Part shown: positions 27,431 through 57,776 of the stretch, in pieces
How positions within the stretch are numbered: the first letter of the stretch is position 1
Layout: every line of letters begins with the position of its first letter
Assembly (NCBI RefSeq): GCF_030503435.1
Contig: NZ_JAUKPO010000002.1
Location: forward strand, 186,001-250,000
From: Rhodocytophaga aerolata
GTDB taxonomy: Bacteria > Bacteroidota > Bacteroidia > Cytophagales > 172606-1
DNA: 64,000 nt
Direction of reading: 5' to 3'
Program-made: the position numbers and the translations under genes
The notes under the pieces: model-generated
Database searches by the model: none
The model's input: only the letters and a program-made list of their open reading frames with translations
What the model was told of the DNA's origin: nothing

Positions 27431-27745
27431 AGCAGAGGCTATCGGTGATACAAATAATATATGTGTAAAAACCTGATAACAGCCTTCGCATAAGCCACCT
27501 TATATAATCTTTGGCATAGGGAGCAGGTTGTGCGGATTGTATAAAGAGGCGTTGCAAAGGCGAGGCCCGCCCGGCCTTGAGGGCAAAAGCTTTCTATTCC
27601 GTATGTAGTCAATGATTAAAATACAATGTGAATTATATAATAGATACACGTATTTCTCTCCTGCTTAAACAGAGAAATAGCAGTTACTCCCCATCCCTAT
27701 ACCTATTGTTATAGAATAGAATGCCTATGTTGCCGGGAGATTACC
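27431..27745. other. Intergenic region between convergent genes, holding repeat copy A
   Basis: 315 bp between the response regulator and lutB, which converge. Repeat element copy A fills 27473-27590, and weak similarity to copy C continues to about 27640 (shared GTCAAT and GATTAAAAT). The rest shows no gene. Confidence 0.6.
27473..27590 (+). repeat. Dispersed structured element, copy A
   Basis: About 118 bp sharing a backbone with copies B (33767-33898) and C (57562-57678). Shared blocks are GATAACAGC, CACCT, TTTGGCATAG, GTTGTGCGGATT, GTTGCAAA and GGCGAGGC, then GAGGGCAAAA. The outer inverted repeat pairs 27482-27490 with 27553-27561; the inner one pairs 27502-27509 with 27535-27542. Relative to copy C, one outer pair is C-G (27484/27559) instead of T-A, and one inner pair is T-G instead of G-C, so pairing is kept. 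It follows the response regulator gene in the sense orientation. Confidence 0.8.
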
Positions 27746-31126: not shown

Positions 31127-31360
31127 ATGGAAATTAAAGTAGAAGTACCGTTTCAACAACTATTGTCAATGGTAAAGGCCCTGACACCGGCACAGAAAGC
31201 CAGATTGCGTAAGGAACTTGATGAAGAAAAGCCAGCTTCTGACAACAAAGAAGATGACTTCATTCACTTTTTGCTCAATGGCCCGGTATATAGCGACAAA
31301 GACATAGCCATTATTGAAGAAAACAGAAAAAGTATTGCAGCATGGCGGACAAAAAGTTAA
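31127..31360 (+). CDS. Antitoxin-like protein partnering a PIN toxin
   Basis: 77 residues, charged and helical (VKALTPAQKARLRKELDEEK), lacking a clear AbrB or ribbon-helix-helix motif. Its 3' end overlaps the PIN-domain gene by 19 nt, the classic arrangement of a type II toxin-antitoxin operon with the antitoxin first. The 'LTPAQKARLRKEL' stretch resembles helical antitoxins found next to VapC proteins in Bacteroidetes and cyanobacteria. It would neutralise the toxin by binding its active site. Confidence 0.78.
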   Translation: MEIKVEVPFQQLLSMVKALTPAQKARLRKELDEEKPASDNKEDDFIHFLLNGPVYSDKDIAIIEENRKSIAAWRTKS

Positions 31361-31746
31361 TGATTGATACAAGCATTCTTATTGACTATTTCCGCAAGAC
31401 AGACAAGGCAAATTCAAGGCTCGTTGCACATTTCAGGCAATACAACCGGCTTTATATTTCAAGTATTACCGAATTTGAAGTATATAATGGGGCCACCCAA
31501 TTACACAAGCAGTTTTGGGAAGGAATGCTGCTAAGGCTGACTGTTTTGGACTTTGACGGGAAGGCAGCCAGACAAGCAGCAGAAATTGTCGGGCAACTCA
31601 GGACCAAGCGAAAAACCATAGACAAGCCTGACCTATTTATCGCTGCTACAGCAATTGTACATGGCTTAGCCTTTGACACCCTGAACCTCAAACATTTTGT
31701 GCACATTGACAATTTAGCCTTGCTTACGACAAGAAATGACGGCTGA
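31342..31746 (+). CDS. vapC: PIN-domain ribonuclease toxin (VapC-like)
   Basis: 134 residues, standard VapC size. Acidic catalytic residues coordinating Mg2+ are visible: Asp9 in MIDTSILIDYF, Glu44 in SSITEFEVYNG and Asp97 in IDKPDLFIAATA. The fourth position falls in the DTLNLKHF segment near 112-119, where many family members have N-x-K-H-F. VapC toxins cleave tRNA or rRNA to arrest growth when the antitoxin is degraded. The gene is translationally coupled to the antitoxin upstream. Its presence in an AT-rich block points to acquired DNA. Confidence 0.88.
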   Translation: MADKKLMIDTSILIDYFRKTDKANSRLVAHFRQYNRLYISSITEFEVYNGATQLHKQFWEGMLLRLTVLDFDGKAARQAAEIVGQLRTKRKTIDKPDLFIAATAIVHGLAFDTLNLKHFVHIDNLALLTTRNDG

Positions 31747-33659: not shown

Positions 33660-33766
33660 GAATGAGGCCTCCTGTAGGTTTAATGATATGGATAGAAAAT
33701 GTTAGGTTTACAGTCTTGTATTGCTATAAGAAATACAGCTAAACATTGCCCTACTCTTTATAGATA

Positions 33767-33898
33767 GCTTTTGCACTCGTAGCCGGGCAGGCCTCGCTTT
33801 TGCAACATTACTCTATAGAATCCGCACAACCTGCTTCCTATGCCAAAGACTTGTCCTGTAAGGATCGCATAAGGTGCCTTTTGCAAAAGCTGTTATCG
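33767..33898 (-). repeat. Dispersed structured element, copy B
   Basis: About 132 bp on the minus strand. Read in that direction it opens CGATAACAGCTTTTGCAAAA and ends with GAGTGCAAAAGC, matching copies A and C. The outer arm GCTTTTGCAA and its complement TTGCAAAAGC are both intact. It carries an extra 15 nt (CTTACAGGACAAGTC) in the inner loop, and its inner stem is weaker. It lies between the GHL6-like gene and lldP, both transcribed leftward, so it is in the sense orientation ahead of lldP. Confidence 0.8.
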
Positions 33899-57533: not shown

Positions 57534-57776
57534 ATCTAAACAACAAAACTTAGATAAAGAACTGATAACAGCTTTTGCAAAAGGCACCTGATAGAATCTT
57601 TAGCATAGTCAGTGGGTTTGTGCGGATTCTATACAGGGCTGTTGCAAAAGCGAGGCCTGCCCGGCCATGAGGGCAAAACTCTCGGTAAGGTGTATGGTCA
57701 ATACTTACTTCCTGCTTGATTAAAATGGTATAAGTAGAATATATTTCTACATTCTGTAAATCTAACCACAACACAA
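57534..57776. other. Gap inside the cox operon filled by repeat copy C
   Basis: 243 bp between coxL and coxM, where this operon is otherwise tightly packed. Copy C of the dispersed element (57562-57678) occupies the centre. Weaker similarity to copy A continues to about 57755. Confidence 0.7.
57562..57678 (+). repeat. Dispersed structured element, copy C
   Basis: About 117 bp, in the coding-strand orientation of the cox operon. Outer stem: GCTTTTGCAA (57571-57580) with TTGCAAAAGC (57642-57651), perfect. Inner stem: ATAGAATC (57591-57598) with GATTCTAT (57625-57632), perfect. A third small hairpin TGCCC/GGGCA lies at 57658-57675. It sits between coxL and coxM. Confidence 0.82.

Follow-up and report, generated by a model that had tools for sequence, protein, structure and literature searches.

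A dispersed intergenic repeat with a covarying structured core, found mostly in sense orientation behind stop codons in Bacteroidota genomes

To our knowledge, selection for RNA structure has seldom been demonstrated in bacterial intergenic repeats. Among the described systems, ERIC (also IRU or RU-1) is a 127-bp enterobacterial intergenic repeat whose transcript is highly base-paired and co-transcribed with its neighbours, and whose effect on mRNA stability depends on how it is oriented (PMC2229807). The same source describes YPAL (RU-2) as a 168-bp palindromic sequence of Yersinia with empty and filled sites, which is expressed with upstream genes (“co-translated”) and has a possible effect on upstream RNA stability, and the NEMIS or Correia sequences as small repeats that have terminal inverted repeats and form an RNA hairpin on which RNase III acts. 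For the palindromic, extragenic REP/BIME sequences, mRNA stabilisation has been proposed (PMC3733652).

The element described here is short, non-coding, multi-copy and dispersed, as are MITE-type repeats of the ERIC, NEMIS and YPAL kind. It resembles ERIC in being about 120 bp long, intergenic and highly paired, and YPAL in having a variable (empty or filled) site and a proposed effect on upstream mRNA; both are likenesses of description. Unlike ERIC, it belongs to another phylum, carries crossing 3′ helices, shows a sense bias after stop codons and covaries with a large turnover of stem sequence between families. YPAL is longer, with internal inverted repeats and variable target duplications. 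The conserved structure of NEMIS-like repeats also differs, since that of the present element is an internal core and its terminal repeats are weak and putative, and REP sequences measure 20-40 bp; in stretches of 3.1-3.4 kb at the three Y1_Tnp loci of the source genome, no copy of this element was found. Short intergenic repeats with an RNA effect are known as a kind; what is new is how deeply the structure is conserved, together with the crossing 3′ unit and the position relative to genes. We recognised no published description of the element in the literature covered, from which subscription papers were mostly absent. Rfam gave no matches for the window (the whole 64-kb stretch of DNA analysed) at gathering scores or for the region of one copy (copy C) at E ≤10, and for nine loci at E ≤1 it gave one match to a miRNA family, outside the element and below that family's threshold. 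An earlier note on this DNA had likewise known of no matching family.

Within the window, the covariance model R2 places exactly three copies, at 27475-27591 (copy A, + strand), 33766-33897 (copy B, − strand) and 57564-57681 (copy C, + strand), which score 109, 80 and 112 bits; nowhere else in the window does the score exceed 7.5 bits. These are the three copies, on the same strands, that the earlier note had reported, and all three are in sense orientation as it had stated. Copy A starts 44 nt 3′ of the stop codon of a LytTR response regulator gene and is convergent with a LutB-like gene; copy B, in sense, is flanked by a glycosyl-hydrolase-like gene on one side and a gene for L-lactate permease on the other; and copy C sits within a molybdenum hydroxylase operon, 30 nt 3′ of the large-subunit gene and upstream of the FAD-subunit gene. 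No ORF of at least 80 aa extends over any of the three, which argues against fragments of a protein-coding mobile element; among the copies in the gene runs surveyed, one is overlapped by an antisense 104-aa ORF. Also in the window, a short ORF at 31342-31746 resembles a PIN-domain toxin gene by eye.

The core is 118 nt long and runs, from 5′ to 3′, through a leader, P1 (9 pairs), a spacer, P2 (3 pairs), CU, P3 (10 pairs), an apical region, the return strands and a 3′ unit. The leader reads GATAACAG in most copies of the genus and often ends in CAG elsewhere. In copy A, the 5′ strand of P1 (GCCTTCGCA, 27482-27490) pairs with TGCAAAGGC at 27553-27561, and that of P3 (27501-27510) with 27534-27543. 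In copy C, P1 joins 57571-57579 to 57643-57651, P3 joins 57590-57599 to 57624-57633, and P2, imperfect in this copy, joins 57585-57587 to 57636-57638. Copy B has a small extra hairpin inserted within the 5′ strand of P3, the inner stem. Most copies have CUUUGG at the opening of the apical region and UGUGCGG at its close; in copy C the motif after the 5′ strand of P3 is CTTTAG, and the conserved TGTGC stands just before the 3′ strand. The internal conserved motifs of the hairpin are CCU and CUUUGG with GCGG. Other small hairpins inside the element are of the CCTGCCTG..CAGGCAGG type in G025, another genome of the order (L091, L120, L121), and CCTTACAGG in the source genome (L079, L081), so some places in the element tolerate insertions.

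Directly behind the hairpin stands the 3′ unit, a part of the element that the earlier note had missed. Here P5a (of the GGGCC/GGCCC type) is crossed by P5b, whose variants among the copies include GUCC/GGAC, GCCC/GGGC, CUCC/GGAG, UGC/GCA, CGC/GCG and CAC/GUG; there is also a loop resembling UGGA or UGA and, in most copies, an A-rich tail. The 3′ unit occupies 27563-27584 in copy A (P5a 27563-27567/27573-27577, P5b 27569-27572/27581-27584) and 57653-57674 in copy C (P5a 57653-57657/57663-57667, P5b 57659-57662/57671-57674). The crossing helices are compatible with an H-type pseudoknot, in which both would form at the same time, and the loops of about 1 nt before P5b and 3-4 nt after P5a are tight for such a fold. 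In another reading, P5a and P5b are two alternative hairpins.

A BLAST search of the source genome (G000) gave 16 copies. Model R1, seeded with 22 copies taken from this genome and its same-genus sister (alignment A2, which is the 24-row alignment A1 less L014, with an insertion, and the diverged L025), found 20 copies of at least 63 bits in G000 plus one at 23 bits, and 22 of at least 56 bits in the sister genome G001 plus three at 21-22 bits. The repeat proposed from three copies is therefore dispersed genome-wide in many further copies. Four other genomes of the order (G004, G016, G025 and G116) hold 1-7 copies each; the marginal matches (21-23 bits, one own and three sister) and a seventh G025 copy (29.7 bits) stand outside the detailed analyses. 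With the source genome included, matches were found in 3 of 8 genomes of the family, 6 of 148 of the order and 8 of 395 of the phylum. These genome searches scored the best first-look candidates only, and absence from them is weak evidence: the phylum search, with 9 candidates scored per listed genome, recovered 9 of the 20 strong own-genome copies. A closer search of 17 chosen genomes, five of which had matches, gave seven copies in G025, five in G116 and one each in G016, G080 and G112, the last two being apical hairpin only. The spread is patchy, as G080 is of the same genus as G025 and six other members of that family had none.

A 21-letter pattern restricted to P5 matched 14 stretches in a named genome collection. 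Nine of them carry the whole fold (60-94 bits), so the 3′-unit pattern predicts the hairpin before it. All nine lie in Cytophagales-type assemblies: Flammeovirgaceae bacterium UBA5585 has four, probably the same copies as in G025, UBA2366 has three, and a Cyclobacteriaceae and a Cytophagales assembly have one each. The other five, one in an Acidobacteria-type and several in actinobacterial records, had no whole fold (best 12 bits), and an earlier first pattern scan of genome contigs had given zero matches. A phage or plasmid origin found no support: in BLASTN at E 0.01, none of 72,556 plasmid and 50,697 phage records matched copy A, and the nine viral contigs in which an 18-letter motif occurs exactly scored at most 8.8 bits to the model.

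From the window, the earlier note had pointed to a compensatory pair in the outer stem (27484 C/27559 G against 57573 T/57649 A) and to a pair change in the inner stem (27505 T/27539 G against 57594 G/57629 C). Both are present in the sequence; three copies alone are thin evidence, however, and support for the structure rests on 56-57 copies in six genomes. Over the 57 rows of alignment A4, which was fitted to the structure and hence leans towards it, 93.2% of 1461 cells pair, compared with 78.3% when shuffled and 33-43% when slid. Two-sided changes occur at 22 of the 26 pairs, and the covariation score is 0.410 against 0.139 shuffled (0 of 500 shuffles reached it) and at most 0.090 slid. We further applied a tree-based null, a purpose-written approximation to R-scape in which substitutions are kept on their branches and columns are redrawn, to 56 copies (A4 minus the partial row L132:651-722, with P5 of L121, split by an insertion, blanked). 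Among 6328 column pairs, the seven strongest covariations all belong to the 31 proposed pairs, and the three pairs at E <0.05 over all 6328 are all in the structure; when the 31 are tested alone, 13 pass, spread over P1, P2, P3, P5a and P5b. Support for P5 is somewhat favoured by its parsing, which used a pairing-preferring script with five rows set by hand (one letter of L083 was lost). In an earlier run on 47 copies (the 49 rows of alignment A3 less two identical ones), E had fallen below 0.05 for 2 of the 6328 pairs, and both belong to the structure.

Pairing holds in 91-95% of cells in each of the six genomes, G004 and G016 contributing one copy each. Stem letters are largely replaced in G016, G025 and G116 with pairing kept, those of G116 and G025 being largely new sequence that is still complementary. 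Compensatory change within and between genomes, together with a sharp drop in identity from core to flank, points to selection on pairing, as the earlier note had suggested, and thereby speaks against inert miniature-transposon remains kept alike by gene conversion and having no present function. The multi-copy state, weakly conserved ends and one copy apparently interrupted by an insertion sequence would fit such remains, but we regard this explanation as quite improbable.

Placement was counted for 50 copies (G116 excluded) against ORFs of at least 100 aa, which are simple ORF calls rather than curated annotation. The upstream gene is co-directional for 44 of the 50 (P = 3e-8), namely 18 of 20 in G000, 19 of 22 in G001 and 7 of 8 in G004, G016 and G025 together; at a smaller ORF cut-off it is in sense for 18 of 20, 18 of 22 and 3 of 4. 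Each of the six exceptions lies more than 190 nt from its upstream gene, and the core begins a median of 60.5 nt past the stop codon. Between tandem genes, 33 copies are in sense and 4 antisense; 10 copies lie between convergent and 2 between divergent genes. Five copies found later by pattern include 3 in sense, 1 antisense and 1 between divergent genes, although three of these are not independent because they have the same neighbours as G025 copies. The G116 copies are mixed by eye, L130 and the plus-strand copy of L131 being in sense and L129 antisense, with no clear orientation for the others.

Many copies stand between genes of apparent operons, such as between susC and susD, and some operon-like gene runs have two or three copies. 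One stretch reads TonB-dependent receptor, element, SusD, sulfatase, element, element; in other runs, PSD1/DUF1553 and DUF1501-like genes (the latter label is our presumption) have a copy in the gap. Copies also cluster: G000 has six pairs no more than 7 kb apart, against 0.3 expected (0 of 20,000 draws reached six), and G001 has four within 13 kb, including one split copy (0.7 expected, P = 0.007). Tandem duplication was rejected as the source of the clusters, as the eight pairs that lie within 31 kb of each other in G000 show no greater likeness than other pairs (0.764 vs 0.769). At L131 in G116, two oppositely oriented copies stand back to back with 16 nt between them (1370-1484, −; 1501-1624, +), and at L018 (L122 5839-6209) a single intergenic gap of a susCD-sulfatase run holds two diverged copies in tandem.

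Copies that lie mostly in sense just past stop codons are expected to be co-transcribed with the upstream gene. We consider that the element has nearly an even chance of being a mobile-type repeat whose RNA core is an intercistronic or 3′-end module for mRNA processing or stability, by analogy with ERIC, NEMIS and YPAL. On this proposal, a non-coding repeat would have spread through the genus and, in patches, across the order, with a 118-nt core conserved as RNA structure: a three-segment imperfect hairpin, a compact crossing 3′ unit and, in most copies, an A-rich tail. We infer that copies are transcribed with the upstream gene, often between two genes of one operon. The folded core, its 3′ unit facing 3′-to-5′ exonucleases, may then set the stability of the upstream relative to the downstream cistron, and alternatively or in addition could be a processing site in the mRNA, so that the element would act as a portable mRNA-end module. 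Both this effect and the means of spread are likewise inferred. The diversity of the neighbouring genes, which have no function in common, counts against the proposal.

A bolder version, which we hold to be possible but doubtful, is a new RNA class of nested hairpin and H-type pseudoknot that serves as a portable marker of cistron 3′ ends in Bacteroidota operons. By blocking exonucleases or by self-cleavage, such an RNA would determine gene ratios (as of susC to susD), several modules in an operon making one co-regulated set. The interest of the element lies in pairing that is kept across families though most stem letters change, along with its crossing helices and its strong bias towards sense placement. 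Should the RNA role be right, these bacteria would carry within operons, including those for nutrient uptake, an mRNA-end device that can be transferred, and the old question of parasite or regulator for such repeats would become testable at single sites.

The 33 sense tandem cases have the next start codon at a median of 73 nt (IQR 55-97), and with a pseudoknot-like 3′ unit so close to the downstream gene the element might instead be a cis-regulator of that gene, riboswitch-like or an attenuator. Yet 10 of the 50 copies face a convergent gene and have no downstream target, the downstream genes are mostly unrelated, likeness follows the genome and not orthologous genes (by eye), the operon of copy C has an orthologue in G001 without the element, and no U-run was seen past the helices. 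Such cis-regulation is improbable in our judgement. By eye, the sense strand likewise has no U-run after the helices for an intrinsic terminator, a candidate that we rejected. EAR (epsC) RNA mediates processive antitermination along operons, and the intercistronic position, the several copies per gene run and a complex fold with crossing helices bring that mechanism to mind; the 10 of 50 copies that stand after the last gene, between convergent genes, and the lack of an Rfam match to epsC or any other family leave it very improbable here. The attC sites of integron cassettes are imperfect hairpins of about 100 nt in fixed orientation after a gene. The copies described here lie in ordinary gene runs and not in cassette arrays, and no 3′ R box (GTTRRRY) was seen at the 3′ end of the core, so attC was rejected as well.

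The earlier note had proposed selection for RNA or cruciform structure. Selection on structure is supported by covariation; between the two forms, sense RNA is favoured over cruciform DNA as the functional molecule because of the sense bias, the crossing helices and a modest excess of G-U over A-C in the 30 best copies (24 vs 11; shuffled ratio 1.12). Against RNA, 17 lower-scoring copies show no such excess (G-U 25, A-C 26), only 3 of the 5 later copies are in sense, and weak relatives are antisense. The sense bias could also come from the mode of insertion.

This last point leads to the explanation that the hairpin is conserved for mobility only, as a single-stranded DNA (or RNA) substrate of a recombinase or transposase acting in trans, with the sense bias due to strand-specific insertion beside stop codons or to counter-selection of the other orientation. 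Dispersal and patchy distribution agree with it. The site of copy C is variable: both genes of the molybdenum hydroxylase operon are kept in its G001 orthologue, around a 106-nt gap without the element, a gap too diverged to fix the ends of the copy C insertion or a target duplication. By eye, copies are more alike within than between genomes. Pairs with core identity of at least 0.85 (mean 0.88) have flanks 0.55-0.57 alike against a background of 0.48. A weak outer sequence likeness common to the copies, a point for mobility, reaches to about −60 and +70, with background beyond. Some copies have imperfect inverted ends, but the TIR pattern is only modestly above control (2 vs 1 in G000, 8 vs 3 in G001), and pairing of the flanks within copies, above chance with all 24 (P = 0.01), loses significance without L025 (P = 0.06), for which reason we dropped an outer stem built by the flanks. 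No autonomous partner gene was recognised, the flanking genes vary from copy to copy, and in stretches of 3.1-3.4 kb at the three Y1 transposase (PF01797) loci of the source genome the model found no match at E ≤5, so a REP/RAYT link was rejected. Three G025-lineage copies have the same neighbours in other assemblies by ORF length and gap (L138 with L073, L143 with L119 and L144 with L091), which indicates that copies can be retained at one site and speaks for retention and not movement. Mobility alone also leaves the crossing P5b helix and the several copies per operon unexplained. We judge this explanation unlikely, though less so than the other rivals.

Among these loci, a copy in one of the three pairs with shared neighbours fills its intergenic gap almost wholly, with 6-7 nt left on each side. 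The presumed 5′ end of the repeat (TAATACC) overlaps or abuts the upstream TAA stop codon at L079, L082 and L097 by eye. The copy at L097 (G001 C1:5012889) begins 1 nt past that stop codon and is a 5′ half-copy, broken off and followed by ORFs that resemble an insertion-sequence transposase by eye.

Weak matches of about 20-30 bits in G112, G116, G160, G181, G356, G480 and G509 have the apical hairpin in common with the element, that of L114 being CAAUCUUUGG..UUGUGCGGAUUG. At these loci, judged partly by eye, the neighbouring genes are on the opposite strand and the transcribed strand is the reverse complement. If they are true kin, their antisense position would mean that the hairpin plays its part as DNA or in sense and antisense alike, and an apical hairpin in opposite strand orientation is a further point for conservation by mobility. 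Several of the loci have, further downstream, a putative attC-like sequence. Weak relatives of this sort form a second repeat class in other Bacteroidota, at L112-L118 (G181, G160, G509, G480, G356), L075 and L077; it carries CTTTGG..TGTGCGG and lies mostly right behind a stop codon, antisense to the neighbouring genes.
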